Assembly (NCBI GenBank): GCA_001247695.2
Contig: LGRX02027831.1
Location: forward strand, 33,326-97,325
From: Cymbomonas tetramitiformis
Taxonomy: Eukaryota > Chlorophyta > Pyramimonadophyceae > Pyramimonadales > Pyramimonadaceae
Direction of reading: 5' to 3'
DNA length: 64,000 nt
The translations under genes were made by a program, and so were the position numbers. Below are positions 11,101-58,834 of the stretch, in pieces (within the stretch, counting starts at the first letter, position 1; each line of letters opens with the position of its first letter). The notes beneath the pieces were generated by a model that worked only from the letters and a program-made list of their open reading frames with translations, searched no databases and had not been told where the DNA came from.

Positions 11101-11498
11101 AGACACGCAGGGACGATGTCCCACAGATACTCAAAGTCAGGGGGAGTTTCTCTCAGGGTCTTCATCTGTGCTTCGGTGAGCGTGCCAGCCCCGGACCTGA
11201 GCCTCCTCCTGACGTTGGCGTTGTGCTGCCGTACGAAATTCTCGCACATGTCGGCGAACTCCCTCAGGAACTTGGGCCGATCTTCTTCCTTGGTGCCCGT
11301 GTAGTTGGGCAGCGTACCAAGGTTGATGCGCGCGGAGTCAGTGTACTCCATGTCTTCCTCAAAGATTACTAACGGCTCCTGGGCCTGGGCTTGAGGTTGT
11401 ACTGGTGCTTGGGCCTCAGGCTGTACTGGTGCTTGGGCCTCAGGCTGGCCACTGGCAGCCCCTTCCTCTCCTTCCAGCTCTGTGAAGTGCTGGCTCAC
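5046..11498 (-). CDS. Gag-protease polyprotein of gypsy element A
   Basis: This is a 2150-codon frame. The first codon shown is GTG; the frame stays open upstream to a TGA near 11610 without any ATG, and the first in-frame ATG is at about 11351, so the true start is uncertain. Visible parts: Gln/Ala/Pro repeats at the N-terminus, a zinc-knuckle-like CLRCFGGGWHESDPEQC near residue 445, two copies of an acidic repeat (CPGMESGDDSD) near residues 755-790, and a retropepsin active site LLLDTGANCNIIP near residue 896. The 1200 residues after the protease, with several acidic or Ser/Pro-rich stretches, are not recognised and are long for this family. The stop TGA (5046-5048) lies inside the start of the pol frame. 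Confidence 0.8.
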   Translation of the reverse strand: MSQHFTELEGEEGAASGQPEAQAPVQPEAQAPVQPQAQAQEPLVIFEEDMEYTDSARINLGTLPNYTGTKEEDRPKFLREFADMCENFVRQHNANVRRRLRSGAGTLTEAQMKTLRETPPDFEYLWDIVPACLAGENSQALSWWRENYEKGGVVASNMDRVLKDTSEHGPLEGTIPCARPPFNEMNTGTTWVIARPVTNQDAQGEVSDEYLTDGTSLKGLTGRDGTRDTQYFYALRGFIAALDKKFMMKGTQEKVDLLTQKPQEVGQDGLTYMKMCQRREMQLNTGKVLSDEELRTFIEDCVDNLRIKVFQTRVKEQLRAQFPPPNRVTWKDLEAIVEVQDKLKGDAESWILTFLQEITRRCGCQYSTWEARQHGLDLKAIKNSIKKIESSEVGQSGELESSKKADTPPSKKMKKEVNVAERAKKASYNKTPPPAEGVRTNDKPKCLRCFGGGWHESDPEQCRSGYKHVKMPAGFHESRLGSSKWWDAENAALRMYNLKNRFKNSDWGILVTDWQQLSNDEKDKYRAKQAPEDKQKGATGNPEALKAEYQGMVAARKTASRAGSVKSQVLSEDEGSDEEPVAAHVAERETHTVDARAHHHGSAGVGVSSGPPTELLSAMAEEMGEEELSSALNTLGLGALPETLCKSAESELTAAPAVALGSTQRMRGFPVKTPEEYEADAQVPMAPAADEMQRKVQLMASVIKSLGAAFRKLAAGLVAEGRITAPRGVETLVELAENNQLPVPTASAADCQDISDEDDDCPGMESGDDSDDDDDCPGMESGDDSDEEEVPLDEMPEDTVEQPRKGRTAVHVTAAAATVQESYGVRDFSERGELHAGTMEAKAYELLKKKMLSGLTEEQLTAMAQVQPVCKLLNESLAQGMALMASGGLLMLYKALLLDTGANCNIIPIRTANRLGLTIFDAETGARVARCDGSPAEFTKYCYVDVVLAAGTPYMTLHRLHAFVTYTNDTTWDFLVGTGPLKNALKLTIDLYRGIATSEAAVSLGMREKVTLPLIELTPPVDARSKRNEDPRVCLATEIFDVDATAARTLAPAFEGCALPPREAVSLDTRGEDRLALAGERCAPAPCAFSRNHPELMDSLASWLEEMRLRRFNSEERERLEARCQSMVEAGFLRPSSMMQVELTGRVSSHAESATYEPPVPGTSLTDQMLGMLQASSRSQREANVATRGEWSSAEEPDGRGSVMPASLATTQSDPRYPDLTLEQEAASEADFKLASVQPWVGMAVNPWDYQDKESSWSQQRLYIDRTGYARLCTLCEEGDGGGVDAGFVRVKFSRCGEYKTILETELLWPDFTLVDQKVDKETKIPSETWTTRASGRKDNDQVPLPDCGAHREAGRYTMASVQETLNTHQTYPGVVTGKLMWDKVARQFCVLSEHTRAQWDLMERMVRHTMEGAATMTPMGKMTGEFQLPFYYEKDQRWQYQHLKYVQRVDIADLRARLKVRYDMEVAGVEDENVKVVPQLTLSDAADKVGKFYPVTDGEGGSGEVFSTNAAAVEYLHLGDNARVMLGACKTEEQAHDALDTYGARRNPPVRTSKTLRTPRTVRGDEAGPSGSAPPPSSATLRLRHQTWPNGVFDPAMLEYHASVFQGTYEPESPTRSENTAGEADWLDLGGISEFTALHGQTVFLIQYRCFMGEIEFQLGKPFAQRGKGVHTQRLSSKTLHQYSSSAGVGQRGEFLPLGGQSKGCTGGLLGTLQKHMEHLVDRTQLLEIARSHLSDGPQQGTLRVFKTRANAQSKAVYYLFEDNRYYRERGPSEMAFTLEYLSSGTRKFDCCSWETWRKVAVMHREPLSAFTSSVGPALLAEARRAEVQVRLRNDFMRCLDPIEGEDAGSEEEDGSISGYSSDLAAAEGVSTHTCRTRTPSPQTEDEDSVEVISERLVGLSASLARGQAEVAANNLTMAALSESIRARQEIIREYEERPRAARATARMSTLGPDCPGLDGRDGARATPTQALCSGRALGGTQTRGLECNMAQRPEHQSIHDILRSPAHSVCTQQTEAVPPAAQEQDSISYVPSTPSSTAPSSPERSSGRVARVDTRPSGHPAARPQSPTASAVQQRSPRAGQRRRRSPSPREGAHRQDAARGRHAGNGASRAPQGRQSYDEIWEERRRESALGPFQGGTGPAAARRARH

Positions 11499-11631
11499 CC
11501 GTATCGCTCTCTGGGCACGCCTCTCTGCCCTTTGTTGCTCCTGACGGTCAGTCTTGGATTCCGTTGCTACCTTCCCGGTGGAGAAGAGATACTGGTGTGA
11601 AGGCTCTTTTCACTCCACACTTCCCAGCTTA

Positions 11632-40357: not shown

Positions 40358-40493
40358 TCAAATATGGGCTTGTTCAGCATACTGGGTCGTATCACCATCT
40401 GCCATGAACTTGCCCAAACTGAAAGTGAACATACCAATGCCTTCACCTTCTCCACCCTGTAACATCCTGGCTCTGACCAGCGGGTTCTTGAAC
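40358..40493 (-). pseudogene. 3' end of the PHD/methyltransferase-like gene split by element I
   Basis: Read leftward from the target duplication, this continues the frame that stops being host sequence at 54618, for about 45 codons up to a TGA at 40358-40360. The phase fits if element I and one copy of the 5-bp duplication are removed. It is the C-terminus of the gene whose larger part is at 54618-55649. Confidence 0.7.
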
Positions 40494-41179
40494 TGTGCCC
40501 AGAGGCACAGCGTGAGCCGATATGCCTATGCGTCCGTATGTGTGTCATCGGGGGTAATCTGGGATTGGCACGATGACAGTGAAATTGGGCTTGAAATCAC
40601 GATGAGAATGAATACCAGATGTCCGGGGTATGACAGTATGACACTATGACAGTATGACAGTATGACACTATAGTAGTATGACAGTACTGTGGGGGGTGTC
40701 ATCGTGGAACTCAGTCAGACCCTCGAAGAATGGTCAGATTCGCATCGGGGTTGAAAAGACAATGAAATCGAATATCAGATATCAAGGTTATGACAGTATG
40801 ACAGTATGACGCTATGACAGTATGACAGTATGACAGTACAGTAGTATGACAGTACTGTGGGGCAGTCATCGTGTCAGTCTGTCGGCATAACATCTGAATC
40901 GAGAATGACGAATCGGAATTAGAAATGAGATCGGATCGGGAATTGAACGTTGAGCCGAAGTGTGACATCGGCTGTCGAGTGGTTGACCCTGCAACCTGAG
41001 TGACGAGTGAATAAGTGGAGCACTTGAGAAGTGTTTAGCCTTCAGAACTCGGAACCGAATTATCGTTTGTACCTCAATCTGGCCCTGATCCAGTATATTA
41101 TAAAAATCCGAATTGTGTACCTTTGCACGTTCAATCAAAAACATATCTCCGAGCATCTGTCGTAGTGCCCACGGGCACA
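40494..41179 (+). repeat. 5' LTR of element I
   Basis: 686 bp with internal arrays of the octamer TATGACAG (40629-40690 and 40788-40860) and two copies of a block around GTATGACAGTACTGTGGGG. Differs from the 3' LTR at three places. Confidence 0.97.
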
Positions 41180-41181
41180 TT

Positions 41182-41193
41182 TGGTATCAGTGT
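41182..41193 (+). promoter_or_regulatory. Primer-binding site (tRNA-iMet)
   Basis: TGGTATCAG lies two bases after the 5' LTR. This is the standard complement of the 3' end of initiator tRNA-Met (TGGTATCAGAGC); nine bases match. Confidence 0.8.
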
Positions 41194-41962
41194 GCTGCGA
41201 ATTCGCCCCTGCGCAACTCGCCCACGGACCTATTGGAACTTTCGTTGTAATACAGGGGGAGAGCTGTACTTCCGGCTATACGTGCGCAAAATTTGCCTCT
41301 GTAAGTACATTTTTTTTCGTATACAACGGCCGTATTCTCTGGGAAATATCTTCAAAACGTCATATTTCAGCTCCTTAACACTGGGGGCTCAAACTGGCTC
41401 AGAAACCCAAGCATTCGTTTTCCGATCTTAAACCCGAAGTCCGTCCCAGGCCACAAACGACCGTCAGGGAGCACCCTGAAGGGTTTCCCCGGTCTACAGT
41501 AGCCAAGAAAACCATATAGCTTACCTTTCAGAGCCCCAAAAAGGCGAAAAACCGCCCAAAACAGCCAAAAATAGCCGTTTTTGACAGTTTCCAGCCTACC
41601 CCAAAACCTCTCCCAGTAGCCCCCACCACCGAAAAACCCCTCCTTAGACCCCATAGAACAGCCTAGAAACCCCTGATACCGCCCTCACGGCCATCAGCAG
41701 CGGGGAAAGCTCCACCAAACAGCGCTTTCAGCAGTTCCTGGACGTTTCTGGCAGCTCTTCAGCACCTCCTGGTATCCTCCAGCAGTGCCCTGACTGGAGC
41801 TTTTTTGGGACCTACGGAGCATAAATACCGTCTGGGACTTTACTGGACCTCTGCATTGGACCTGGCACCCTTCCTTTCGTTGCTGCTTGACCCTTGCTCG
41901 CGCGCCTAGGCACTCAAAAATCGTGTCGCGGAGCCCTGGCCAAATTTTGAGTTCGCTGGTGT
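41194..41962 (+). other. Leader of element I
   Basis: About 770 bp between primer-binding site and first ATG-led ORF. Pyrimidine-rich in its second half (CCCC-rich near 41590-41640). No gene seen; it may contain packaging and translation signals. Confidence 0.6.
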
Positions 41963-42139
41963 ATGGCAGTACCCCCAGACCCAGACAAATGCAGAAGAGC
42001 GTGGTGGAAGCAAGGACCTATTAAGTGGGTATTCCCTCCAGACCCTACCTACCCACCAGCAGGCGCTTTCTGGCAGAGCGGTTTCAGCGGTCCTCCTTCC
42101 CCCTCTTCCTCTGACGACGAAGAGGAGAACAGCGACTGA
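41963..42139 (+). CDS. Small Pro-rich ORF with acidic tail, upstream of gag
   Basis: 58 codons from ATG 41963 (MAVPPDPDKCRRAWW) to TGA 42137-42139. It is rich in Pro and Trp and ends SSSDDEEENSD. A second frame ending 42377, open back through this ORF but without its own ATG, also ends in Pro/Ser and an acidic tail (ESDIDEDETD). No family recognised. The shared MAVP start with the gag of element H (36557) hints at a gag N-terminal piece, but this is weak. Confidence 0.35.
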   Translation: MAVPPDPDKCRRAWWKQGPIKWVFPPDPTYPPAGAFWQSGFSGPPSPSSSDDEEENSD

Positions 42140-42462
42140 ACGCCTGGGCAGAGCCAAGCTGGCTATCCCACCAGTGTATCACAATTTCGTGTGGCATCAG
42201 GTTGGAAACTACCACTTCCACTACCCGCACACCCAAGACCTAACAGCCTTCCCCGCGCTCCCTGGTTCATTCCCAATACAAGTGATCGACGAGTGGCCTT
42301 GGGTCCCCCCATCTCCACCTGGAAGCCCCGCTCCTTCGCCTCCAGAGAGTGACATCGACGAGGACGAGACTGATTAAATAAAAAGGCGAGCACTCACTAC
42401 TTTTGCTCACCTGTGGCTATTGCCACACCCAGTCTGTGAACTCAACCAGCTCAGCAGTCAGA

Positions 42463-43494
42463 ATGTCACAGCAGACATCAGAATCCTTTCCCAGCATGGG
42501 TGTCAGCGCAGAGTCGTTACACCACCCACTGTTCTCCCCCATCACCTTCCCATCTCCTACCACATACGCTTCCGCTCACCCCCTTCCACATCCAGGCACC
42601 ACCATGCCCTACACTGCGGTGCCCCGCCCATATACCATGCCGGATGGCACCCCCGCACAGGCTGTATGGAACGGCGTCAATTGGGTACTGCCCCAATCAG
42701 CGCCCCTCGCTGGGGGAGTGTCACCAGTGCCGTTCACACTGGGAACCCACCACCCCATGGGCTCATATCCCACACCATTCCAACAACAGCTGCAGCAACA
42801 GCAGCAGTGGCTCGCGTACCAGCAGCAGCAACAGCAGTGGCTTCAGCAGCAGTCACTGGAACCGATGCAGCAGCAGTTACAGCAGCAGCAGTTACAGCAG
42901 CAGCAGCAGCAGCAGCAGCAACAGCGGCCGCAGCCGCAACAACAGTCACAGCAGCCCCATCAGCTGGTACCAGCTACCTCCGCGCTTCATGACTCTGGTG
43001 CGGATCTCTCACCGCTGCAGCACTTCATCAGTATCGGCGCCGCAGCCCTGCCAGATCCTCTGCAGGTACCCCTTGACAGCGGAGCTCAGCAGAGCGCCTC
43101 GGGCGGGGCCCAGCTCTTGGTACGCCATCTCCCCGCGGTGGCAGCAGCCTCAGAGACCCGCCGGAGTCGACGCTCCCGAAGAGTATCCTCGGGCCCCGCG
43201 ACGCACGGCCGGCACATTCCGGGTCTGAGCCATGCATCTGATCACTCCGACCCCGAGTCCGGCACGGACGTCAGCCGCACCAGCACGGGGACCAGGGGCA
43301 GCCGAAGCACGCAGGCACGGGCTGAGCGCAGCAGGGAAGATATCTTCCTGGGATTGGCCGGCCCGGGGCCGTATCACGGAGGCCCGGGCCGAAGGCGGGC
43401 CGAAGGAAAAGTTGCGGATGGGCCGAGTCGCATTGAGGGGAAAATCGATAAATTTCCAAAATTTTATCGATTTTTGACAAATTGTCATACCTAA
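42463..43494 (+). CDS. Gln-rich N-terminal part of gag of element I
   Basis: First ATG at 42463 (MSQQTSESFPSMGVS); the frame is open slightly further up. Residues about 105-170 are an almost pure Gln tract encoded by CAG/CAA repeats (42780-42960), followed by Ser/Arg-rich sequence. The frame runs into an inserted 250-bp segment at 43346 and stops in it at 43494. Low complexity makes function hard to read; its position argues for the N-terminal region of gag. Confidence 0.5.
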   Translation: MSQQTSESFPSMGVSAESLHHPLFSPITFPSPTTYASAHPLPHPGTTMPYTAVPRPYTMPDGTPAQAVWNGVNWVLPQSAPLAGGVSPVPFTLGTHHPMGSYPTPFQQQLQQQQQWLAYQQQQQQWLQQQSLEPMQQQLQQQQLQQQQQQQQQQRPQPQQQSQQPHQLVPATSALHDSGADLSPLQHFISIGAAALPDPLQVPLDSGAQQSASGGAQLLVRHLPAVAAASETRRSRRSRRVSSGPATHGRHIPGLSHASDHSDPESGTDVSRTSTGTRGSRSTQARAERSREDIFLGLAGPGPYHGGPGRRRAEGKVADGPSRIEGKIDKFPKFYRFLTNCHT

Positions 43495-43606
43495 AATTAA
43501 AATTTTGCGCCTGCGGCGGGCAATTTTGGGTTCGGGCCGCGACGGGCCGAAATGTGGCCGAAGTAAATTCCCAATGCGGGCCGAGTCACCTCCGCGGAAG
43601 ATATCT
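43346..43606. mobile_element. Small insertion with 11-bp target duplication in gag of element I
   Basis: GGAAGATATCT occurs at 43335-43345 and 43596-43606, bracketing 250 bp that differ in composition: GGCCGA-rich ends and an AT-rich centre (AAAATCGATAAATTTCC). The 9-11-bp duplication suggests a Mutator-like MITE, but clear inverted ends are not visible. Joining the flanks at the duplication does not unite the Gln-rich frame with the gag frame, so the phase also changed. Confidence 0.6.
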
Positions 43607-46126
43607 ACACTGGAGCGCAGGCGGAGGGTCGCCCACAGGTCCGGCTCTGACTCGGACGCGAGCAGCCGGAGCGAGCACATTCGCAGGGAAGTCCTGGCGG
43701 CAGTACAGGCCCTGGATATCTCCGCGGTGATCTCGAGGGGTCTCGCCCTGCCTGGCGCGACGGCTTCTGCAGGAGCCTCCCCTCCAGGCGACCCTCAGAG
43801 CAGCGCACAGGGGGCCCTGACGGCGGACCATCCACTCGAGGCGGACGCCGCTGACAGCGTAACCCCCCCAGTGTCTCAGACTGTCGCGGAAACCGCTCCC
43901 GCCGAACCTCCCACTCAGGGTCGGCCGGACCCCCTCAACATGATGGTGGCTCGCCGGCGGCAGTCGATGGAGACGGTAGTGCACGGCGGTGGCAACCCTG
44001 AATCGGAGCCCGGAGACCCCAGTTCAAGCGACTCGCCACCAGGGCCCCCCAGTGATCCACCCCAAGATCCCCCTGACGACCCCGCACCAGAGCCCTCCTA
44101 CCCTCAGTACCCAGAGGTCAGGGCTCTCTTCGTCACCCACGACGGTGGGTCATTGTGGGTGCACCAGTCAGCGGGGGTGCGAGGCGCGGCAACCGTTTCC
44201 CTGCCATGGGATGAACGCCGCCGGGCTGGGGTACAGGGCGACGCCATTCTGTTCAGGATCATGCACCTGCTGGGAGCGCCGCTGACCGCATATGCGCGCA
44301 TGGGAGGCCGCCTACACCACGCACCCCTACCACTTACCAACCCTCGTGTGGAGACCTGGGTTCTCATGGTCGACCGCGAGGTCATGGATATGGCAATGGG
44401 GGACCCAGCCGCAGCCAATGTGCGGTCTACGAGCATGGGGCAGCCAGTGTGGGAGTGGATCCCTGCCACTGCGCGGGAGTCGGAGATGCAGAACTTCGAC
44501 CAGGACGGGCTCGCCGCGTGGTCAGAAGTCAGCAACTCCGATTGGTACCGGAGCATGAGCGTGGTGGCCGCACAACCATCCACACCCCTGCCCTTCCATA
44601 CACCTCTTCCACTCCCCGCTCCACCATCAACCCCTGCAGTACCGCCCACCTCGACTGCAGTCCCCACAAATCCCGCGCCTGCACTCCCACCCGCGCATGC
44701 CCCAGGACTACCACCTCCAGCCCGTTTCCCCCACTCCGCCGCCGCAAATCCCGTTCACTCTACCGCTGCTGCGAACCCCGCACTCTCTCCCAGCGCCACC
44801 CCCTTCGTACCAGGCATCGTCCGATTGCCGCAGGGCACTAATCTGCGAGCATCCTCAGACGAGGTCCGCCTGGAGCACAAGACCAAGGAGATGGTGCAGA
44901 AGCTGATCAAGAGTGTGTCCAGATTCCCTCGCTCCGCGTCCGACACCAAGTCGGCCGACAAGGATGGCCTCCTGACGCAGTTGGAGCACTACTCCAACAT
45001 GGTGCGGAAGATATTCCAAGAGGCCATCGTGATCGAGGCGCTGACCACTCCCAGCTGTACGCCATCTGTATCGGCGTACCAGGCGAGCGTGTCGAGCCTC
45101 CTTTGGAGTTTTAAGGAGCACACTCTTCAGGACCAGCAGAAGAAATTCTTGGAGCGTGCGGCGGGGACCTTCGGGTCTGACCAGGCTTGGCACCGGCGCT
45201 ACGTAGAGCTGGACGTGTTCTTCAGCGATCTGGCGGTGTGTTCTCTAACACAGGCCTACCTGGAGAATGCACACGGAGAGGCCATTGCACTGAGGCAGGC
45301 GACGAACGAGACAGCGGCGGAGTATTTTTCGCCGTTGGAGACTCGCATCATGGCCTCCGTCAACTTCCTGGCTGGCAGAGTCCCCAATTGCGTGGAGATG
45401 TCCAACCTGTCGATGCTCTCCACGTACCGCCGAGGGTTAAAATATGCACCCAAGGTGATGCGGCGCCTGAGAGCCATCCACTTGGACGTCTCCAAACCAG
45501 AAGAGTGGGAAAGGAAGGCCGTCGCTGACGATATCCCAGGCACCCACAACGCCTTGTTGAAGATTCGGGAAGTCGCTGAGGAGGTGGGGAGCGACATTGA
45601 CACGGAGGCGGCTCAGAGGCGCTCTCAAGACCGTCCTCCCCGTACTGTTTCCTTCGCCAACCCATCACCTCGCACCCCCTTCTTCAGGCGTACCCCCTCT
45701 TCGAATCGCCCAGCTCTTGCCATGCTGGAGAATGGGCCTGCCACCACCGTTGCCGCGGCAGTGGCCCCATTGCCACCACCACCTGGCCTCTCCCGCCCCG
45801 ACGCTCCGAAAGTCCGCCGGTGCTTCGCCTGCGGCTCTGCGGAGCACATCGTCCGTAACTGCACGGACGAGGCTAAGCTCAAGGAGTGGAGGGCCAATGC
45901 ACCCACTCGATTGGCAAATTCCCCTGGGTTTGTGGCCGCCGTCGTCTGGGCCATCGAGCAGCAGGAGGACATCTCCTCGGTAGATGGCGTCCCAGAGGAG
46001 TTCTCCGAGGAGGTCTTGGCACTTGCTACCTGTGAGGACGAGCAGAGCTACCCGACCCTGGCGGCCCTCGCAGGTATCGAGCTTGTGGAGGGTGACGGCC
46101 TTCCTCCGGTGGAGAGCGATGAATGA
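43596..46126 (+). CDS. Gag (capsid and zinc knuckle) of element I
   Basis: The frame ends in TGA at 46124-46126; nominal upstream start codons fall inside the inserted segment, so the coding limit is placed at the duplication. It has an Arg-rich start, long Pro/Ser-rich linkers, a helical capsid-like part (about 44860-45600, for example QLEHYSNMVRKIFQEAIV) and a standard zinc knuckle CFACGSAEHIVRNC (45820-45861), then an acidic tail. This is the usual order of a gypsy gag. The frame after the TGA is open in the same phase for another 158 codons (to 46600). Confidence 0.75.
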
Positions 46127-46494
46127 CTGGCCGGCGACCAGCCCCAGACCCTGCCCCTCGAGGAAGTGAGGTCATGTCCCGACGATCAGACCCTCTCCGC
46201 CCTGGAGAAGCGGTCAGAGCCAGTGGAACCCCGACGCGCACGAGGACGCAGAGACCCTTGGGGCCACCGTCCCCATCCCAAGAGCGTGGCCTTCACCTCT
46301 GGGACCCGCTTGCGACGCACCTACCGCTCAGCTGGTGCCCCATCGCTGCCGAGGGATGACCTGACCAGCCACCCTCTTGCAGAAAGTAACCCCCTCGATG
46401 AGCCGTCACTACCTCTTGATGACGGCCCTGCTTATACACAGGCAAGGATCGAGGGTCGGAGGGGGCGGCGAGTCCCCCGGCACAGACCCCCATT

Positions 46495-47256
46495 ATGGGC
46501 AGCAACCGCGGAGAGCCCCGTGATCTTCGCCCCCGACCGCGTGTTGTCCTACCACTGCCCAACTATCAGTCCAACCTCGCAGACCCGCAGAAGAGGCTAA
46601 CTGCGTGGCACTGGAAGAGGGATCTGTATTCTCTCCCCCTTGAAGTCGCCATGCAAAAAGTTCGCAGAGCTCTGCGCAAATCCCCGGAGGCTGCCAAGGA
46701 CCTGGTGGATAAGATGTGGGAGCGTACTCGTAGCCGCATACGCTCTGGGAGTCGATCGCCGAAGGAGCACGTGAACCGCGCCAACCAGCTGGCGGAGAGG
46801 GTACGCATTGCCCGTGAACCTCAAGATCGTAGAGAGGGCCATCAGCGCATCGCACTGTGGCACCTCCTCTCACACGACGGTCACCAGCAGGTCCTCGAGT
46901 CCCCTAGCGCCAGCCCCTCCGACCTCTACGCAGCTTGGAGAGAGCTGTCGCCCGCCGAGCAGCTGGAGGCGATCGCCACTTCGAGTCCAGATTCCTCCCC
47001 CGGTAGCAGGCTGTGGGAAAAAGGAGGGTGCACGAAGAGCAGCAGCGAGATCCTCGACCTCTCTCTGCACCCTGGACACCGAAGTGGGCACGATACCCGG
47101 GACAGCGGGAGACGTGGGCTTACCTGGCGCCTGGTGCAGTCTACACGCAGTGCACCAGTACAAGATGAGGAAGCTGGGTCCCAGCCCCTTGGGAGCATCC
47201 CCTCCATCATCCCCACTGGTCGAGCCCACGACAGAGACGACGTCCTCGCGCCATGA
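46495..47256 (+). CDS. Linker ORF between gag and protease of element I
   Basis: 253 codons from ATG 46495, in a different phase from gag and protease. The first 170 residues look like a real charged helical protein (LPLEVAMQKVRRALRKSPEA and following); the last part is weaker. It overlaps the protease ORF by about 450 bp, so the coding path probably changes frame around 47.0 kb. No family recognised. Confidence 0.4.
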   Translation: MGSNRGEPRDLRPRPRVVLPLPNYQSNLADPQKRLTAWHWKRDLYSLPLEVAMQKVRRALRKSPEAAKDLVDKMWERTRSRIRSGSRSPKEHVNRANQLAERVRIAREPQDRREGHQRIALWHLLSHDGHQQVLESPSASPSDLYAAWRELSPAEQLEAIATSSPDSSPGSRLWEKGGCTKSSSEILDLSLHPGHRSGHDTRDSGRRGLTWRLVQSTRSAPVQDEEAGSQPLGSIPSIIPTGRAHDRDDVLAP

Positions 47257-48823
47257 CAACGCGCCGGCTACCCCGGGAGGAAACCTTGAAGGTCCATCTG
47301 ACTGCGTAGTGACGGAGGAGACCTCCACACCCAGCTCGCTTTGCTTCACCCAACAGATGACCACCGTCAGAACGCATGAAGCAGATGAAGCGCCGCCCCG
47401 TCTCGACAGCCACCCCATCGCTGAAGACCCTGAGGTGATGGAAGAGGAGTCCTCAGTCAATTCGCTCTGCTTCACCCAGCAGATGGCAGCCGCTGGGACC
47501 CCTGAGGCGAGAACTGACCACCAGAGCTCCCACCAACTCGCCCACAACTCCCCCACTAGCAGCCCTCAGCATGACGAGGATCCCCTCACCCATGGCAGTC
47601 TCACCAACGGTGTCGCTACCCATGCGAGCCCCACAACAAGCGGCACTACCCACGTGAGCCCCACAGTAAGCGGCACTACCCATGTAAGCCCTACCACCAG
47701 CGGCACTACCCATGTGAGCCCTACTACCAGTAACACCACCCATGTGAGCCCTACCACCAGCGACACCACTCATGTCAGCCCCACCTCGAGCGAATGCACC
47801 TCAGCGGGCACCCTGCTGACGGCGAGTGTAGACAACCTCGTCAGTCATCCGACTGAAGATGTTGATTTGCTGGATGAGGAGTTCTACGCCGCGTGTAGGC
47901 AAACGTTGGAAGAATGCCGCGAGGCCTCGGACAACCTCCTCCCCAACCTCAAGTGCAAAAGCATACGCACAGATGGGGGAGTTCAGTGGAAGACCGACAT
48001 TGAGGGTACCCTCGCAGCGGCACATGACGAAGAAGGACCGCTGCTGCTGGTGTTCTATGCAACCCTCAGAGGGCACACGGTCAAGGTGCTGATCGACTCG
48101 GGGGCCTCTGACAACTTCATCTCGGAGCAGAGCGCCAAGCGATGTGGCCTCACAACACGAGCCGGCTCCGAGATGCGAGTCACCTTGGCGGATGGATCTG
48201 TGAAGATCACTGGCGCCACCGCGTACGCCAAGTTTAACACGCACACCACCACGGGCACCTATACGGAGAACGCCCTTGCCCTCCGGATCCTACCACTGGG
48301 CATACAGGTGGATGTTATCCTTGGCGGAAGATGGTTGCGCAGTCACTCTCCTGTCACTCTGGGCTACGAAGGGAATGGCCCCGTCTCCTTCCTCAGGAAG
48401 TCCCGCAGTGGTAAGATTGGGGATCGCGTCACCATCACAGGCTGTTCTCCTGGGAAAGCATCTGGAGACAGGTCTCCGAAGGGCACGGCCTGTGCGGGAT
48501 TGGTGGATGAGGTGTTCCTGACCCCTGCCCAGTTGAAGAAGTACCTGGTGTACGCGGAAACGCAGAAGCTACGCGGCAATGGCGACCCGGAGATACAACC
48601 CGCCTGGCTCATGATGGCCGAGAAGTCCCCCGATGATACTGCTTCTGCCTTTGCAGCCACGGCTATCGACTCTGAGAACGCCGAACCCGCTGCGGATACT
48701 GAAGATGCAGAGGTGAGCCCTGAATGGACCCTCAAGTTTCAGGACTTCTGGGGTGAGGAGTACAAGAAGGAGATGACGACTGCCCTACCGAACATCGATA
48801 GACTCAGACATGACCCCCAATAA
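46808..48823 (+). CDS. Protease region of element I
   Basis: A 671-codon frame with a non-ATG first codon; the protein-like part begins near 47.0 kb. It contains two copies of SLCFTQQM (near 47340 and 47465), six tandem 10-residue repeats (TTHVSPTTSG, 47612-47792) and a retropepsin site VKVLIDSGASDNFI (near 48095) followed by the second conserved block (VDVILGGRWLRSH). It ends with TAA at 48821-48823; the RT frame continues in the same phase right after it. Confidence 0.75.
   Translation: MPVNLKIVERAISASHCGTSSHTTVTSRSSSPLAPAPPTSTQLGESCRPPSSWRRSPLRVQIPPPVAGCGKKEGARRAAARSSTSLCTLDTEVGTIPGTAGDVGLPGAWCSLHAVHQYKMRKLGPSPLGASPPSSPLVEPTTETTSSRHDNAPATPGGNLEGPSDCVVTEETSTPSSLCFTQQMTTVRTHEADEAPPRLDSHPIAEDPEVMEEESSVNSLCFTQQMAAAGTPEARTDHQSSHQLAHNSPTSSPQHDEDPLTHGSLTNGVATHASPTTSGTTHVSPTVSGTTHVSPTTSGTTHVSPTTSNTTHVSPTTSDTTHVSPTSSECTSAGTLLTASVDNLVSHPTEDVDLLDEEFYAACRQTLEECREASDNLLPNLKCKSIRTDGGVQWKTDIEGTLAAAHDEEGPLLLVFYATLRGHTVKVLIDSGASDNFISEQSAKRCGLTTRAGSEMRVTLADGSVKITGATAYAKFNTHTTTGTYTENALALRILPLGIQVDVILGGRWLRSHSPVTLGYEGNGPVSFLRKSRSGKIGDRVTITGCSPGKASGDRSPKGTACAGLVDEVFLTPAQLKKYLVYAETQKLRGNGDPEIQPAWLMMAEKSPDDTASAFAATAIDSENAEPAADTEDAEVSPEWTLKFQDFWGEEYKKEMTTALPNIDRLRHDPQ
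47612..47792 (+). repeat. 30-bp coding tandem repeat, six copies
   Basis: Each unit encodes about SGTTHVSPTT. The in-frame unit length shows that the repeat expanded within coding sequence. Confidence 0.85.
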
Positions 48824-51800
48824 GATGAAGCCAACATTAACCTGGACCCTGAGCTGAGCAAGAAGGGGCCGCCCTGCCAGCGCATCTACAAGAAGTTTGC
48901 AGAGGAACTCCGACAACTTCGAGAACGCGTGGAGACCCTGATGTCCAAGGGCTACATCCGACCCTCTTCCAGCCCTTATGCAGCTCCCTGTCTGATGGTC
49001 CCCAAACCGGGGAACCCCAAGGAGCTGCGACTGGTAATCGACTACCGGCTCCTCAACCGCCAGACAGTTAAGGACAAGTATCCTCTCCCAGACATCCAGA
49101 TGATGTTCGACGAGATGCAGGGTGCGAAGTTCTTCTCTTCGTTCGACGCGGTGGATGGCTTCTGGCAAGTACCGATGGCACCAGGAGATGTCGAGAAGAC
49201 CGCTTTCACCACCCAGATGGGGTCATATGAGTGGTTGGTCATGCCGCAGGGGCTGCAGAATTCACCGTCTCAGTACCAGCGACGGATGCAGCGGGCCTTG
49301 GGTCATCTCCCATTTGTCCGGATCTTCATCGATGACGTGGTCGTCTTCAGCAACACCGCTGCAGAGCACTACGAACACGTCAAACAACTGCTCCTGACGT
49401 GCAGGGAGAAGGGCGTCTTCCTCAATAGGTCCAAGTGCCAACTGTTGAAGAAATCCTTGCGGTTCCTTGGCCACTGTATCTCCGCGGATGGCTGCAGACC
49501 CCAACACGACAAGGTGGCTGCAGTGAGGGACTGGCCCGAGCTGGAGACGGTTACCCACGTCAGGCAGTTCTTGGGCCTGGCGGGGTATTACCGCAGATTC
49601 ATTCACTGCTTCTCCGAGATCGCCCAGCCCCTCACCCGGTTGACCAAGTCGGACGTACCCTGGGAGTGGGGTCCCATGCAGCAGTGGGCCTTCGAGGAGC
49701 TGAAGAAGGCCCTCACATCAGCGCCAGTGCTCGCCTTGCCCAACATTAAGGGTGCCGCAGACGGCACAGCACCTTTCGTGGTGCAGACGGATGCTAGCGG
49801 CATCGCTCTTGGGGGAGTACTGATGCAAGACAATGGAGATGGTCTTGGGCTGCGCGTGATAGCATACGAGAGCCGCCAGTTCTCAGCCGCCGAGCAGAAT
49901 TATCACACCGGCGAGCGTGAGCTAGGTGCTCTACACCACTGTACCACCGTCACCTGGCGGCATTATCTCATCTTCACCAACTTCCGCATCCAGGGTGATC
50001 ACCGCCCCCTTGAATGGCTGATGGAACCTGGCAGAGAGCTTAGCCGCAGACAGGCACGCTGGTACATGGATCTGGTGGAGGTGGGAGTCCCGAGAATGGA
50101 GTACATCAAGGGAGCGCTGCTGCTGGTACCAGACGCCCTGTCCAGAAGACCCGACTTCAAAGACAAGGACGTGCGCGAGGGGTTGAAGGAGGCAGGAGTG
50201 ATCGACCCCACCTCAGACCTGCCGAAAGACCCTCTGGCAACGCTGGAGTCTGAATGCTTCTCCAGCTCACCACCCGCAGCTCATCCCCACTGGGCTCAGA
50301 CGGTTGACTGTTGGCTCTCAGCAGTGGAAACCCTCTCCGTGGCGGAACAGGCCATGGACATGGGGGAGACCATCGCTCTCGTTAATCCGAAGCTCTATAA
50401 GGGAATGAAGGAGGATCACCTCGACTTCGACATGCCTGACTGGCCTGAAGCTGATAGCGCGAAGCCGACAGAAGCTCCACACGAACCCCCTGACAGAGCT
50501 CCACCCCAGATAAGGATAACGAGGAGTATGTCACGCGCTGGGAAAGCCTCTACGACCCCAGCGCCTCCACAGTTGGCGTCACCGAAGACGCGAACGCCTA
50601 CATCACGAGCTGACGCATCGGAGGCGCCCACTGAGAAGGTGCCAGCGAGCTCACCAACCCCGCAGCAGGCGCCCCAGCAGTCAACTCCATCCCCGGTCCT
50701 TCACCCACAAAAACGGCAGGCTCCCCCAGAGGACTCACAGAATTGGCGTGTCCGAGCAGAGTACTCCTCGAAGTACGCCGAGAAATTTGGACCCTTCGAT
50801 GTGGACGCCTGTTGTGACTTTGGCGGCCGCAACAGACAGGCGGATAGATTCTGGACAGACTGCCTTTCAGAGAAATGGAGGGGCCTTCGGGTTTGGTGTA
50901 ACCCTCCATATAACTCCAAGCACATTACGGTGGAGGCGATTTTGAACAAGTATATCGCAGAATGGAAGGCAGACCCAGAAAACACCTCAGCAGTCTTCGT
51001 TCTACCAGATCACCAGTCCAAGCTCCCCGCGTGGCGCAAACTTTTCAGAAAGGCCAATATGCAGATTGTGGAGGTCATCCCTACTCACGATGATAAGGGC
51101 GAGCCCAATCAGTTCTTCGAGAACCCAGATGGGAAGGCCTTCGACCTTCGTTGGCCTGTTCTGATAGTACACGCCCCTCCCGCCAAACCACAGCCAGCAC
51201 GCGTGAGGCATCCGCGAACAGCCCCCGCTGTGATAAGGACAGGTGAGGCAGCAGCCTTCAGAGACGCAGCCTCCCAGCAGTCGGACTCAAAGTTCCTGCG
51301 TGCGTTGAAAGCGGAGTACACCCGAGAGGGGACACTTCGTTCGCTGCGAGGGAAAGTGAAGGCGGCACCACACCAATGCCTACAGGACTTCAGGCTGGTG
51401 GGTGAAGTGGTTTGGAGGACCGCAGCAGGGAGATATCAGTTGGTGCTGGGGGAGGACTCTCCACTTCGAGAAGTAGTGATTCGTCATGCTCACGAGTCAT
51501 TGTCCTCGGGTCACACTGGGCGAGACAAGACTCTGGAGAGGGTGCTGCGACGCTTCTATTGGCGTGGTGCCGCGGAAGATGTGGGCACCTGGGTTGCATC
51601 CTGCGCGGTGTGCCAATCAGTAAGGCCGCGGGGGACTTACCCGGATGGGTTGCTAAACCCTCACAGCATCCCGAACAGACCATGGCAGGATGTCGCGGTG
51701 GACTTCGTCACCGGCCTGCCAGTATCAGAGAGAGGTAATGACGCTTTCGTGGCCTTCACTTGCAAGCTGACGAAGATGGTCCACGTTGTGCCGATGAACT

Positions 51801-52522
51801 TCGGCGACAGCTCTGCAGCTGTGGTGACCAGAATCTACTTTGACTCGGTGTGGCGCTTGCATGGCGCGCCTATGAAGATTGTCTCTGATCGTGACCCGCG
51901 GTTTCAAGATGCCTTCTGGCAGGAGCTCATGAGACTGATGGGTGTGAAGGTGGCTCGTACCACGCCGTACAACCCTCGGTTTGACGGCCAGGCGGAACAC
52001 AGCAACAGGGTTATTGAGGACATGCTCAGGTCCTTCGTAGACGCCAATGTGGAGGACTGGGATCTGTTCACCACTAACGTGGAGTTCGCGATCAATGACT
52101 CCAGGAGTGAATCTACTGGCTTCACGCCATTTGAACTGGTGTTCGGGTCTTCGCCGCTGTCGCAGTTAGACCTTTTCCTGGAGGCCGCACAGTCCACCGC
52201 TGGACGACGAACAGGGGGAGTAGGCACCGCACACGAAGTGGCCGTGAAATTTTCGTCGCAACTGCGGGACGCCAGACAGCGGTTAGAGCTGGCTCAACAG
52301 CGACAGCGCGAACAGTTTGATCGCAGGCACGGACAGCGGGAGTATGCTGTTGGAGATCTGGTCTGGATAGAGGCGAAACACCTTACGAAGAAGGTGATGG
52401 ATCGCTCCATCTGCAGGAAATTGACCAAGCGCTGGCATGGACCAGTCCCTGTGACCGAACGCTTCTTCAGCGATGTACAGATGACCATGCCAGAGGCCGA
52501 CAGGGGAGCTCCAGTAGCCTAG
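48824..52522 (+). CDS. Pol of element I: RT, RNase H, Dam-like methyltransferase, integrase
   Basis: Open from the TAA at 48823; the first Met codon in phase is at 48941. RT: GYIRPSSSPYAAPCLMVPK at the start, FIDDVVVFSN active site (near 49335), FLGLAGYYRRFI. RNase H: VVQTDASGIALGGVL (near 49785) and GDHRPLEW. Adenine methyltransferase: 50740-51180. Integrase: zinc finger HAHESLSSGHTG...CAVCQ (51488-51615), core with VDFVTGLP, SDRDPRF and FDGQAEHSNR giving the DDE triad. The frame ends at TAG 52520-52522, and its natural continuation (PPHWRIHDVFAQHRLKPY) lies in another phase, so a frameshift separates it from the chromodomain part. Domain calls are firm. Confidence 0.93.
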   Translation, partial: DEANINLDPELSKKGPPCQRIYKKFAEELRQLRERVETLMSKGYIRPSSSPYAAPCLMVPKPGNPKELRLVIDYRLLNRQTVKDKYPLPDIQMMFDEMQGAKFFSSFDAVDGFWQVPMAPGDVEKTAFTTQMGSYEWLVMPQGLQNSPSQYQRRMQRALGHLPFVRIFIDDVVVFSNTAAEHYEHVKQLLLTCREKGVFLNRSKCQLLKKSLRFLGHCISADGCRPQHDKVAAVRDWPELETVTHVRQFLGLAGYYRRFIHCFSEIAQPLTRLTKSDVPWEWGPMQQWAFEELKKALTSAPVLALPNIKGAADGTAPFVVQTDASGIALGGVLMQDNGDGLGLRVIAYESRQFSAAEQNYHTGERELGALHHCTTVTWRHYLIFTNFRIQGDHRPLEWLMEPGRELSRRQARWYMDLVEVGVPRMEYIKGALLLVPDALSRRPDFKDKDVREGLKEAGVIDPTSDLPKDPLATLESECFSSSPPAAHPHWAQTVDCWLSAVETLSVAEQAMDMGETIALVNPKLYKGMKEDHLDFDMPDWPEADSAKPTEAPHEPPDRAPPQIRITRSMSRAGKASTTPAPPQLASPKTRTPTSRADASEAPTEKVPASSPTPQQAPQQSTPSPVLHPQKRQAPPEDSQNWRVRAEYSSKYAEKFGPFDVDACCDFGGRNRQADRFWTDCLSEKWRGLRVWCNPPYNSKHITVEAILNKYIAEWKADPENTSAVFVLPDHQSKLPAWRKLFRKANMQIVEVIPTHDDKGEPNQFFENPDGKAFDLRWPVLIVHAPPAKPQPARVRHPRTAPAVIRTGEAAAFRDAASQQSDSKFLRALKAEYTREGTLRSLRGKVKAAPHQCLQDFRLVGEVVWRTAAGRYQLVLGEDSPLREVVIRHAHESLSSGHTGRDKTLERVLRRFYWRGAAEDVGTWVASCAVCQSVRPRGTYPDGLLNPHSIPNRPWQDVAVDFVTGLPVSERGNDAFVAFTCKLTKMVHVVPMNFGDSSAAVVTRIYFDSVWRLHGAPMKIVSDRDPRFQDAFWQELMRLMGVKVARTTPYNPRFDGQAEHSNRVIEDMLRSFVDANVEDWDLFTTNVEFAINDSRSESTGFTPFELVFGSSPLSQLDLFLEAAQSTAGRRTGGVGTAHEVAVKFSSQLRDARQRLELAQQRQREQFDRRHGQREYAVGDLVWIEAKHLTKKVMDRSICRKLTKRWHGPVPVTERFFSDVQMTMPEADRGAPVA
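50740..51180 (+). other. Dam-like N6-adenine methyltransferase domain inside pol
   Basis: About 145 residues between RNase H and integrase. Landmarks: GPFDVDACCDFG (like the DVCA block), DRFWTD, WRGLRVWCNPPYNS with the catalytic NPPY motif (50898-50915), AVFVLPDHQ, and a closing FDLRWPVLIVHAP strand. The pattern fits the phage/bacterial Dam-type family (phage N-6-adenine methyltransferase). It is in frame with both neighbours, so it is made as part of the polyprotein. I know of cytosine methyltransferases in LTR elements, but not of this type at this place. Confidence 0.85.
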
Positions 52523-52523
52523 C

Positions 52524-53744
52524 TACCGCCTACGCCTCCCTCCTCACTGGCGGATACACGACGTGTTCGCTCAACATCGCCTCAAACCGTACACCAGCGG
52601 TCAAGATACTTTCGCCGCACGCGATCACCTAGCAGTACCTGAAGAGGTGGTAGTGGACGGTCAGAAGGAAGCACACGTTGAGCGTATTCTTGCACGTCGA
52701 GTGCGGTCTGTTCGAGGAAAAGAGGTGGAAGAGTGGAAGGTTCGCTGGACTGGCTACTCCAAAGCTCACGACCAATGGAGGACGCGTGACAAACTTGAAC
52801 GCGGAGGTCCACTTCAACAGCTTCGTGAATTCGAGCAAGCGAGACTGCACATGGAAGCGCAAGTTCGCGACGAAGCCACTCGGCGACGCGAGCAACGTGG
52901 CCGTCACTCCGCTCAAGCCGGAATGACACTGGCCCACCTCATCACTAATCCCTGCGATGAACTGGACCAGCTCGAACAGATGGAATATGATACCCCCCTG
53001 CCGTGGGAACGCCAAGAGCGCGTGGAAGATGGGTCGTTGGCACTGGTGACAGAGCTGCTGGCGATACAGACGAAAGCAACCCGCACGCCCAGGATTCTCG
53101 TACTTTTCAGCGGTACTGGCTCAGTAGAGAGGGAATTCCTAAATTGCTTCCCCTCCGCTTCAGTGGTGACCCTCGACTCCGGACATATCTGGCAACCCAC
53201 TCATGTGTGTGACATCCTGCAATGGGACTACAGACAATACCCGCCTGGATTCTTCGATGTCGTTTGGGCAAGTCCCCCCTGCAGGCAGTACAGTCAAGCG
53301 CGCACCACTGGTGGACCCCCTGACCTTCCCCAGGCTGACAAAATCGTACGACGAGCATTGCAGATCATTGACTACCTGGAGCCGAAACATTGGTTCATGG
53401 AAAACCCCAGAGGTCGCTTCCCTAACGCGCTACGGCTTCGTCCTATGATGCGCCAGCTCCCTCCTCCGCTGGTGTGTACCTACTGCATGTACGGTACGCA
53501 GTACATGAAGCCCACCTGCATATGGACGAACTCAGCGCCACCCACGCCCCTGCTACGCTGTACTGCTTCAACACCGTGTGCGTGCAGATGGGCAACCGGT
53601 GCTCATCCAGAGACTGCTCAGCTTGGACCTCACCCGCAGCAGACTGGAGCGGGCCGATCTGCGAGTGTATATCCCGTGCCAGCACTTCTGCTACGACAAC
53701 TTTTCCGACATTTACGCCTCCGCAACACTGAAGACCCGCTTTAG
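52524..53744 (+). CDS. Integrase tail, chromodomain and C5-type methyltransferase of element I
   Basis: The frame, shifted relative to pol, begins with the conserved gypsy tail PPHWRIHDVFAQHRLKPY (52530-52590), followed by a chromodomain (VERILARRVRSVRGKEVEEW, then RWTGYSKAHDQW; 52670-52850) that could steer integration to marked chromatin, and then a methyltransferase-like domain (53090-53520). The C-terminal 70 residues are Arg/Pro/Leu-rich and may reflect another frame. A methyltransferase after the chromodomain is unusual. Confidence 0.8.
   Translation, partial: YRLRLPPHWRIHDVFAQHRLKPYTSGQDTFAARDHLAVPEEVVVDGQKEAHVERILARRVRSVRGKEVEEWKVRWTGYSKAHDQWRTRDKLERGGPLQQLREFEQARLHMEAQVRDEATRRREQRGRHSAQAGMTLAHLITNPCDELDQLEQMEYDTPLPWERQERVEDGSLALVTELLAIQTKATRTPRILVLFSGTGSVEREFLNCFPSASVVTLDSGHIWQPTHVCDILQWDYRQYPPGFFDVVWASPPCRQYSQARTTGGPPDLPQADKIVRRALQIIDYLEPKHWFMENPRGRFPNALRLRPMMRQLPPPLVCTYCMYGTQYMKPTCIWTNSAPPTPLLRCTASTPCACRWATGAHPETAQLGPHPQQTGAGRSASVYPVPALLLRQLFRHLRLRNTEDPL
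53090..53520 (+). other. C5-cytosine methyltransferase-like domain at the end of pol
   Basis: Motif I ILVLFSGTGSVEREF, motif IV WASPPCRQYSQAR with the catalytic Pro-Cys, motif VI-like WFMENPRG (ENP instead of ENV), and KPTCIWTN. This is the signature of a compact Dcm-like family also seen in phages and large viruses. The target-recognition part is short or missing, so activity is uncertain. It differs clearly from the DNMT3-like domain of element A. Confidence 0.75.
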
Positions 53745-53918
53745 ATTCCAAGTGGCACCCTTCTTCATGAAAGTGGTGCCCTGGTAGCGGCAGGCAAACT
53801 ATGCTCGAAGAGGGACCAGAGAACCTAAGAACTGGAAAAAGAAAGGAACCAGAAAACCTAAGAACTGGAACTTAGATGGGTACCTTAGCGGAGTGATCCC
53901 AGGAGGTAGACCACTCCT

Positions 53919-53932
53919 AAGGGGGGGAGAGT
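53919..53932 (+). promoter_or_regulatory. Polypurine tract of element I
   Basis: AAGGGGGGGAGAGT directly before the 3' LTR; expected plus-strand primer. Confidence 0.85.
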
Positions 53933-54617
53933 TGTGCCCGGAGGCACAGCGTGAGCCGATATGCCTATGCGTCCGTATGTGTGTCATCGGGGGTAATCTG
54001 GGATTGGCACGATGACAGTGAAATTGGGCTTGAAATCACGATGAGAATGAATACCAGATGTCCGGGGTATGACAGTATGACACTATGACAGTATGACAGT
54101 ATGACACTATAGTAGTATGACAGTACTGTGGGGGGTGTCATCGTGGAACTCAGTCAGACCCTCGAAGAATGGTCAGATTCGCATCGGGGTTGAAAAGACA
54201 ATGAAATCGAATATCAGATATCAAGGTTATGACAGTATGACAGTATGACGCTATGACATATGACAGTATGACAGTACAGTAGTATGACAGTACTGTGGGG
54301 CAGTCATCGTGTCAGTCTGTCGGCATAACATCTGAATCGAGAATGACGAATCGGAATTAGAAATGAGATCGGATCGGGAATTGAACGTTGAGCCGAAGTG
54401 TGACATCGGCTCTCGAGTGGTTGACCCTGCAACCTGAGTGACGAGTGAATAAGTGGAGCACTTGAGAAGTGTTTAGCCTTCAGAACTCGGAACCGAATTA
54501 TCGTTTGTACCTCAATCTGGCCCTGATCCAGTATATTATAAAAATCCGAATTGTGTACCTTTGCACGTTCAATCAAAAACATATCTCCGAGCATCTGTCG
54601 TAGTGCCCACGGGCACA
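53933..54617 (+). repeat. 3' LTR of element I
   Basis: 685 bp, same ends and internal octamer arrays as the 5' LTR. The minus-strand reading frame of the neighbouring gene runs into it, which is accidental. Confidence 0.97.
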
Positions 54618-55649
54618 TGAACACCAAGACCCACATACACCTGTGGCCAATAGGTCCATGTTCCAAATGTCCAATCACATGCAGGCGCCCAGACTGACTC
54701 AATCGTCTGAAGTACGCGGCTCTGCTCTCGGTCATATCTGTCAAATAGTAAGAAGGAACATGCACGCATGCCACCACACGGCTGGCCATAACTGCCAATG
54801 GAAACGCGATATCGAGCGCTGCAAACCAGGGAGAGGTCACCACGGCATCACAGACGCCATACTTCTCCTTCCATATGCGATAGTTACCTGGCTGAAGTGC
54901 ATCATGCGCCTCAGACCAACCCAGCTGAGAGTTCCAGTCATTATTCATAAATCTCAACTGTGACCATTGCTCCACCATCACTGCACTGATGACCCCAGTA
55001 CCTGCCCATGGGTCCCACACGCCATCGATGGACTTCCAGTCCACCTCTGTCGCCAAGCGCCTCACCTCGGAAGGCACTGTGATGACCAGCTCAAGCCCCC
55101 ACTGCAGTGCACTGGCTTCGCGCACCTGAGCCCTGGTCATATGTCTCAATTCTCCTCGTTTCTCAACTTCTTCTTCAGCCAAAGCAGGCACCCGAGGTGC
55201 ATCCCTCAGTTGCCTTGCCATTGCTTTCTGTTCTCGATACTTCTTGCTCAGCACGATCCCTCATTCCAGTGCCCTGGCATGAAGATCTGCACAGCCTCTG
55301 AGAGCTTGTCCTGTCTGCCCCAATCAACCTGATCTGGCATGTGAAGGAGCAAGTCCTTTTCTTCCAGCATCATCTCCCTTGACGAGATAGCATGCCATGG
55401 CTGAAACCTATCTCCCTTCACCACACGACGGGGACCCACGTCTGCTGGCAGCAGGCGCATGTCTGAGGACAGCTTCTCATTCAATTGCTGCTCCTTCATC
55501 CCCAATCTGTCCTCCAGGACACAAGAGCTCTTGATTTCCTGGGTCTGCACCTCAGCGCTAGCAGCTTGCATCCTCGTGCCTAAGCACCTAGGACATAGCC
55601 ACTCGCCTTCTGGTACTTCATCCAGTCTTTGGGGTAAGGGCTGTTCCAT
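54618..55649 (-). pseudogene. PHD-finger/methyltransferase-like gene, broken by element I and by a MITE end
   Basis: Two frames. 55649-55248 has the end of a PHD finger (LPQRLDEVPEGEWLCPRCLG); its first residues come from the Harbinger-like terminus at 55638, so the 5' part of the finger is lost. 55254-54618 carries a Rossmann-type methyltransferase core: VWDPWAGTGVISAVM (SAM-binding), NNDWNS, DAVVTSPWFAALDIA (SPW in place of the DPPY-type motif). The frames meet at 55250 with a shift. The last 105 residues of the long frame are LTR sequence; the true end is at 40358-40493. It may be an amino-methyltransferase, or a relic of another mobile element. Confidence 0.7.
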
Positions 55650-58338: not shown

Positions 58339-58624
58339 CGCCCGCCGCAGGTGTTGTCAGGCAGCCTCCATGACCATGTTCCAATGGACCAGCAGATCGC
58401 CAAACACCAAGGTGAGTAGTATACCACGAAATTCAGGAAATCCTCCATGGTCCACATACCTGCCCCCCAACACCCCTCCCCGGGTACGATTTACACAAAC
58501 TAACACAACAGCACACGCACTCCCCATAACGACAAACACCATTGCGCTTGTTCATGGATAGGTCAGGCACAGCCGCACCCTCACGTACCCTGCACATGTC
58601 GCGAGTCATTTCAGATAAGCACAA

Positions 58625-58825
58625 CGTTTGGCGCTCTGTTTGAGCTAATGCCACGAACGAATTGCAACCTGACAAAATCTGTCGCCAAAAAGATAGGGTT
58701 GCCAAGCGTGCCTCCATCTTTTCTTCTTTTCGATGGAGGCACACTTGGCAACCCTATCTTTTTGGCGACAGATTTTGTCAGGTTGCAATTCGTTCGTGGC
58801 ATTAGCTCAAACAGAGCGCCAAACG
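58625..58825. repeat. Foldback element, 94-bp arms, in a transposase intron
   Basis: Arms 58625-58718 and 58732-58825 are inverted copies with one mismatch, separated by 13 bases. The outer part of the right arm (GTGGCATTAGCTCAAACAGA and on) is the 5' half of the tRNA-like unit found at 39112, 39430 and 59719. The transcript would form a near-perfect 94-bp hairpin, a possible source of small RNA. Confidence 0.92.
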
Positions 58826-58834
58826 CTGCTATCA

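Follow-up and report, generated by a model that had tools for sequence, protein, structure and literature searches.

A predicted DIRS-type adenine methyltransferase domain in the Pol polyprotein of a Ty3/Gypsy chromovirus family of Cymbomonas tetramitiformis

Retroelements that encode DNA methyltransferases pose a puzzle, because silencing marks should harm retroelements. A locus in the genome of the marine green alga Cymbomonas tetramitiformis raises this question for adenine methylation. Within the 64,000-nucleotide stretch of DNA analysed here (GenBank assembly GCA_001247695.2, contig LGRX02027831.1, positions 33,326 to 97,325; hereafter the window), a reading of the sequence alone had placed a Dam-like adenine methyltransferase of phage type in a gypsy pol, as a current part of the element that would add 6mA to what a retroelement can write. 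Does the domain belong to this family, is it kept by the element, and where did it come from? The element concerned, element I, is a 14.1 kb Ty3/Gypsy chromovirus at window 40494-54617 on the + strand, with the following features.

40489..40493, no strand: left target-site duplication TGAAC (read directly from the letters)
40494..41179, +: 5' LTR, TGTGCCC...GGGCACA (repeat search, LTR alignment, letters)
41182..41190, +: primer-binding site TGGTATCAG, 3' of the 5' LTR (read directly from the letters)
43478..46126, +: gag-like ORF, 882 aa (ORF list, Pfam)
46124..46126, +: gag TGA, then CTG (46124-46129); four long-frame copies continue into pol without a change of frame
46775..48823, +: ORF with aspartic protease, PF13650 at 48059-48328 (ORF list, Pfam)
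48824..52522, +: reverse transcriptase-RNase H-Dam-integrase ORF, 1,232 aa (ORF list, Pfam)
48998..49474, +: reverse transcriptase, PF00078 (Pfam)
49667..50077, +: RNase H, PF17919/PF17917 (Pfam)
50723..51187, +: predicted DIRS-type Dam (N6-adenine methyltransferase) domain, PF05869 (Pfam, PHROG, alignment, fold model, structure match)
51458..51976, +: integrase, H2C2 zinc-binding domain and rve core (Pfam; rve below cut-off; D, D, E by eye)
52674..52838, +: chromodomain, PF00385, in ORF 52518-53744 (Pfam; frame shifted in the window copy)
53061..53663, +: C5-type (Dcm-like) DNA methyltransferase domain (Pfam, PHROG, motifs FSGTG, SPPC, ENP)
53920..53932, +: polypurine tract AGGGGGGGAGAGT, just 5' of the 3' LTR (read directly)
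53933..54617, +: 3' LTR (repeat search, LTR alignment, letters)
54618..54622, no strand: right target-site duplication TGAAC (read directly from the letters)

Element I is placed among the Ty3/Gypsy chromoviruses by its LTRs, its short target-site duplication, its PR-RT-RH-IN order and a chromodomain 3' of the integrase. We take the primer-binding site to be of the initiator-Met (iMet-like) type. The LTRs end in TG...CA and are 99.56% identical over 687 aligned columns, as near-identical as first noted. A CCHC knuckle in the gag-like ORF (aa 781-796) scores 17.7 bits, under the Pfam cut-off of 20.8. The location proposed for the methyltransferase, between RNase H and integrase, is borne out by the Pfam order in the 1,232-aa ORF: RVT_1 (E 1.9e-32), RNase H (3.9e-27), PF05869 (2.6e-7), H2C2 (2.8e-17) and rve (1.5e-5), of which the H2C2 match is not under its cut-off and the rve match, at 25.6 bits, is under its cut-off of 32.6. 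The description of this arrangement as one open frame holds from reverse transcriptase to integrase and fails beyond it: the window copy carries a TAA at 48821-48823, between the protease and reverse transcriptase frames, a frame change near 52518, ahead of the chromodomain, and broken frames at ~46.6-46.8 kb, between gag and protease. Upstream of the protease, a 30-bp tandem repeat (47588-47797) encodes THVSPTTSG-like repeats. GTAC occurs 64 times in 40494-54617 against 30.6 expected under a first-order model, an excess of ~2-fold, and is 1.35-fold over expectation in the rest of the window.

The Dam domain comprises 155 residues that enclose the stretch originally singled out (50740-51180), and it sits after a linker of ~215 residues 3' of RNase H. 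The PF05869 match reaches 30.9 bits against a gathering score of 28.1 and covers model positions 5-78 of 169 only (42.6 bits over positions 7-79 of 169 in the related polyprotein P0011); for the rest of the domain the assignment draws on conservation in relatives and on the fold model. The domain stretch by itself also matches PHROG 111, 'DNA methyltransferase', with an E of 1.5e-12. DVDAC lies at 50798-50812 and an intact NPPY at 50900-50911; D-A-C and N-P-P are invariant in 22 aligned rows, with Y or F next after N-P-P, and a second alignment (A2) has 12 rows. We take the two motifs to be the SAM site (D-x-x-A/C) and the catalytic motif (NPP[YF]). The predicted structure is a class I methyltransferase fold. 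Window 50723-51187 is thereby confirmed, at the level of sequence, as a domain of the adenine-N6 methyltransferase family with predicted activity, and the Pfam search suggested by the sequence-only reading gave a match above cut-off in place of the family-less result that would have undone it.

That the domain writes 6mA is plausible. The best structural match to the fold model is, however, an enzyme acting on RNA caps, and the Foldseek top list (best E 5.3e-4) also holds protein and small-molecule methyltransferases; both observations count against the explanation that we favour, in which the element's DNA would be methylated. A PDB sequence search with the domain returned only three weak, unrelated matches (best E 0.03). 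One alternative is an active adenine-N6 methyltransferase whose substrate is RNA, either genomic or messenger, in which m6A or cap-proximal m6Am would affect translation, packaging or reverse transcription; we regard this as possible, if on the unlikely side.

Whether the domain is kept by the element was addressed with other copies in the genome (851.7 Mb in 25,745 contigs). We found 23 relatives with pol context, 17 of them from Cymbomonas tetramitiformis. The identical 155 residues occur at 142 places, the window included, among 150 places scored out of 7,687 first-look candidates, and a single one of the 150 holds a stop. Open frames of at least 1,000 aa surround 112 of the 142, and frames of at least 2,500 aa surround 23. 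Five long-frame copies, chosen for length, have neither the TAA nor the frame change of the window copy: the window copy is damaged and the family is not. One frame of 2,536 aa contains, in order, PR, RT, RNase H, Dam, H2C2, rve, SH3, chromodomain and PF00145, with rve below cut-off and PF00145 at cut-off, and in P0011 (2,077 aa) the order is unchanged from the protease onwards, with both of these matches below cut-off. Pol follows the gag TGA-CTG in the same frame both in the window and in four of the five copies with long frames (the slice of the fifth began inside pol), and this shared frame makes readthrough of the gag stop into pol possible.

Lists sorted by protein score, and copies chosen for long frames, are biased to unchanged proteins, and we therefore replaced them with a sample picked by DNA: of 1,936 first-look candidates we took the 40 that best matched a 401-base piece of RNase H DNA, or 39 once the window was dropped. 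As the 39 nearest of 1,936 candidates, these speak for young copies. Dam is whole-length in 35 of the 39 (5 with an indel) and partial in 1, and 3 give no match in a 565-base slice, which does not tell loss from displacement. In all, 29 are full and ungapped and 1 more ends a base early, so that ten were left out of the pN/pS calculation (3 without a match, 5 with an indel, 1 partial, 1 a base short). Over all pairs of the 29 ungapped copies pN/pS is 0.061 (0.0035/0.0568), and 28 of them are free of stops. The 29 and the window together show 27 distinct synonymous variants and 13 distinct nonsynonymous ones (0.13 per site); 12 of these 13 are confined to one or two copies, including the one stop and one N60H, at the N of NPPY. 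The copies with no match, a partial domain, an indel, the stop or N60H are counted against our favoured explanation. The sets that this sample replaced gave a pN/pS of 0.118 for 15 copies from a list sorted by profile score (16 rows, L087-L089 and L091-L103, with L087 and L089 the same place, and L090 and L104-L108 dropped) and a Dam pN of 0, by choice of copies, for the five long-frame copies. Compared with 15 copies from a distant subfamily, the window shows saturation at synonymous sites and a dN of 0.33-0.34; across subfamilies Dam identity is 50-79% (17 relatives), against 19-40% for the preceding linker (14 scored).

These results support the view that the Dam domain still belongs to the element family and is maintained in it by selection, as a current part of the element had been proposed, and the suggested comparison of copies, in the 39 picked by RNase H, did not bring out the general absence or decay that would have refuted this. 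That the match reflects chance or a decayed passenger, for which one might point to the damage in some copies, the window's among them, is extremely improbable, and we reject it in view of the significant Pfam and PHROG matches, the 142 identical places, the low pN/pS and the retention of the domain across subfamilies with saturated synonymous change. It is also conceivable that the domain has lost methyl transfer and is retained for another role, for example to bind nucleic acid or sense SAM and so position RNase H and integrase. Its shortness, with no separate target-recognition part seen (as judged from length and fold model), would suit such a role, and the function of the DIRS methyltransferase domain has been described as unknown (PMC3266345); the invariance of NPP and DAC and the rarity of nonsynonymous change, as expected of an enzyme, speak against it, and we consider it unlikely.

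Element I appears to encode a second writer. The C5-type domain in ORF 52518-53744 matches PF00145 at 1.2e-4 (22.1 bits against a cut-off of 22; 22.0 bits in L144 and 20.0, below cut-off, in P0011) and phrog_757 at 2.6e-17, and is 29.5% identical to a Bacillus phage protein annotated as a cytosine-C5 specific methylase. FxGxG, PC and ENV/ENP motifs together with the family match assign it to the C5 enzymes, borderline in Pfam; the domain reads FSGTG, SPPC and ENP at these motifs. A PDB sequence search with this domain gave nothing at E up to 0.1. Its pN/pS is 0.09 in the five long-frame copies chosen for length. Burns et al. (2015) described three scaffolds of more than 10,000-fold coverage with chromodomain-, RNase H- and cytosine methyltransferase-like regions, and reported transcriptome sequences in 19 of 23 scaffolds above 5,000-fold; an adenine methyltransferase is not named among the scaffold contents in the consulted portion of that article (PMC5741210). 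This description would fit an element of the same kind.

The window also holds other features. Another Gypsy-type polyprotein on the minus strand (1-5133, where the ORF leaves the window, and 5046-11609) has a C5 methyltransferase (PF00145, 7.2e-10) between RNase H and integrase H2C2, giving the window two Gypsy elements that bear a methyltransferase at this junction; a 2,187-aa ORF beside it has no Pfam match. Element I itself is inserted into a minus-strand frame (54623-55260) with the stretch WDPWAGTG ... VVTSPWF, which looks methyltransferase-like; the frame has no Pfam or PHROG match, and when the flanks of element I are joined it stays open for ~45 further residues. An inverted repeat at 58622-58828 has 97-nt arms that are 98% complementary and lie 13 nt apart.

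As to origin, the best PF05869-scored places of the genome include DIRS-like loci, and in L081-L086 an RNase H-like end is followed almost directly, by reading, by D-R-D-D-W-K...C-N-P-P-F (D-T-D-D-W at the start in L081). The firmest DIRS case is L112: its 760-aa ORF matches reverse transcriptase (5.9e-11) and Dam (6e-12), both above cut-off, and a 360-aa ORF matches tyrosine recombinases (phrog_1 1.2e-6; PF00589 2.4e-4, below cut-off). In L110 reverse transcriptase and Dam also exceed their cut-offs, and the recombinase match is weaker (0.094). Neither L112 (0.22) nor L110 (0.036) has a significant Pfam match to RNase H, and a 252-aa ORF adjoining the Dam ORF of L082 has no Pfam match. In addition, three Copia-type polyproteins carry a PF05869 Dam flanked by gag zinc knuckles on one side and the Pol beta-barrel (protease) domain on the other, assigned by Pfam in P0023 (knuckles by reading) and P0041 and by precomputed domains and reading in P0040. 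When P0023 was compared with the genome's own Copia elements (29 scored of 12,214 candidates), its integrase and reverse transcriptase parts matched and its Dam part did not.

Comparison of profiles (13 Gypsy, 5 DIRS, 3 Copia and 12 phage rows) places the Gypsy Dam nearest to DIRS, with an E of 4.1e-34 over 140 columns, against 1.8e-20 over 106 for phage and 1.1e-19 over 88 for Copia; mean identities to it are 35%, 24% and 29%, respectively. In trees the Gypsy, DIRS and Copia domains group together against the 12 sampled phage rows with 100/100 support. Since the DIRS loci are nearest by profile and the retroelement versions group apart from the phage sample, we do not favour the earlier label of phage type. 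The idea that the Gypsy lineage newly acquired its Dam gene from a phage or giant virus, independently of DIRS, would draw on the motifs common to the phage enzymes, on the phage profile match and PHROG 111, and on an alga that eats bacteria and holds many viral elements (PMC10675990). Against it stand this single clade, the clade of Gypsy and Copia against 24 phage rows that was obtained before DIRS rows were added (100/99), the higher identity to DIRS, the mere three annotated phage records that matched, at 25%, and the start of most Gypsy relatives, D-R-Q-D-W-K, which resembles D-R-D-D-W-K of DIRS (the window itself has D-S-Q-N-W-R). We consider such a capture quite improbable with respect to this sample, in which the 12 phage-type proteins were drawn from 80 retained viral loci.

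The order among the three retroelement groups is less sharply drawn. Gypsy forms one side of a branch with 94/90 support without short rows and 72/89 with them, and the best tree without short rows joins Copia with DIRS (87/85). Without short rows no arrangement of the three is rejected (p-AU 0.34-0.44), and Gypsy with DIRS is rejected in none of three tree tests (p-AU 0.32, 0.38 and 0.34). Tests that included four short unplaced proteins gave strong rejections (Copia with DIRS, p-AU 0.005; Gypsy with Copia, 1.35e-7, and 1.7e-63 in another such test), which we discarded because P0034 groups with the Copia rows yet lies outside the constrained group, forcing the result. The three-way comparison and the position of Copia next to DIRS count against our favoured explanation and keep alternatives in play, in that the domain may have passed from Gypsy to DIRS or come to both from a shared, unsampled source. 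A DIRS-type Dam domain most likely moved into the LTR element. This direction seems the likelier one because DIRS elements occur widely across the Unikonta, which make up one half of eukaryotes (PMC3783388), whereas the Gypsy form has Cymbomonas as the sole named species among the relatives found.

Taken jointly, we consider it fairly probable that a Cymbomonas Gypsy chromovirus gained a DIRS-type Dam at the junction of RNase H and integrase, with recombination or template switching involving a DIRS element as the most likely route, and that it uses this domain to mark its own cDNA. According to this model, intact copies would make Gag and then, in frame past the TGA, a Pol of ~2,535 aa with the layout PR-RT-RH-Dam-IN-chromodomain-C5 methyltransferase. 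The enzyme would be packaged together with reverse transcriptase and integrase, take SAM, and methylate adenines of the new cDNA before or during integration, while the C-terminal domain would add 5-methylcytosine. Such marks might shield the cDNA or determine the chromatin state at a new insertion. Counts of GATC and CpG in the element show no clear methylation footprint, a point against the model. A bolder proposal, which we offer tentatively and hold to be rather doubtful as a whole, is that one Gypsy polyprotein combines adenine and cytosine writers with reverse transcriptase, integrase and a chromodomain possibly reading chromatin, that the element labels its own cDNA or new insertions doubly, with 6mA and 5mC, and in this way controls the protection and chromatin state of each new copy, and that the adenine writer is a cassette exchangeable among DIRS, Gypsy and Copia. 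That the Gypsy domain is akin to that of DIRS, and that Dam also occurs separately in Copia, does suggest that the adenine methyltransferase passes as a module from one retroelement order to another, and if so, the old, unexplained DIRS domain looks like a useful part and not a lineage relic. A high-copy and apparently young family with adenine- and cytosine-type domains, in an alga already nanopore-sequenced, makes it testable whether new copies are marked, on which base, and whether marking helps integration, protection or silencing.

Parts of this picture are already in print, both for Dam in DIRS and for C5 enzymes in Gypsy elements (KnitGypsy-Dnmt3, PMC5890265); in open-licence PMC literature we found no Dam in Gypsy or Copia and no polyprotein with both writers. 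KnitGypsy-Dnmt3 of Klebsormidium, like element I, has a DNA methyltransferase in a Gypsy Pol ORF under purifying selection, but its enzyme is a eukaryotic Dnmt3 cytosine methyltransferase (PMC5890265), whereas in element I an adenine-type Dam follows RNase H and the C terminus carries a small, phage-like C5 domain. Retroelements that encode their own DNA methyltransferase also include LINE and DIRS elements of Symbiodinium with a Dnmt, but unlike the Dam of element I these are cytosine enzymes, in other retroelement orders (PMC5890265). An orchid Gypsy lineage has also gained an adenine-methylation enzyme, in this case an m6A demethylase that acts as an eraser on RNA and occupies an additional ORF (PMC9289625). 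Phage N6-adenine methyltransferases (PHROG 111 / PF05869) share family and motifs with the Dam of element I but are free-standing proteins with ~24% mean identity to it (12 compared). The closest system by profile is that of the DIRS elements, which are described as carrying a Dam/MT domain (PMC3783388, PMC5890265, PMC6338049), credited to Goodwin and Poulter in PMC6338049, so that retroelements with an adenine methyltransferase were in themselves already known (PMC3783388, PMC5890265). The DIRS domain is of the same family (PF05869) and likewise C-terminal to RNase H in pol, following it nearly at once in the DIRS loci and after the ~215-aa linker in element I. DIRS elements are described as having a tyrosine recombinase, no DDE integrase and no aspartic protease (PMC3783388). 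Their repeats are inverted or split; element I, with LTRs, a target-site duplication, an aspartic protease, an rve/DDE integrase and a chromodomain, is not a DIRS element, and shares with them the adenine methyltransferase-family domain.
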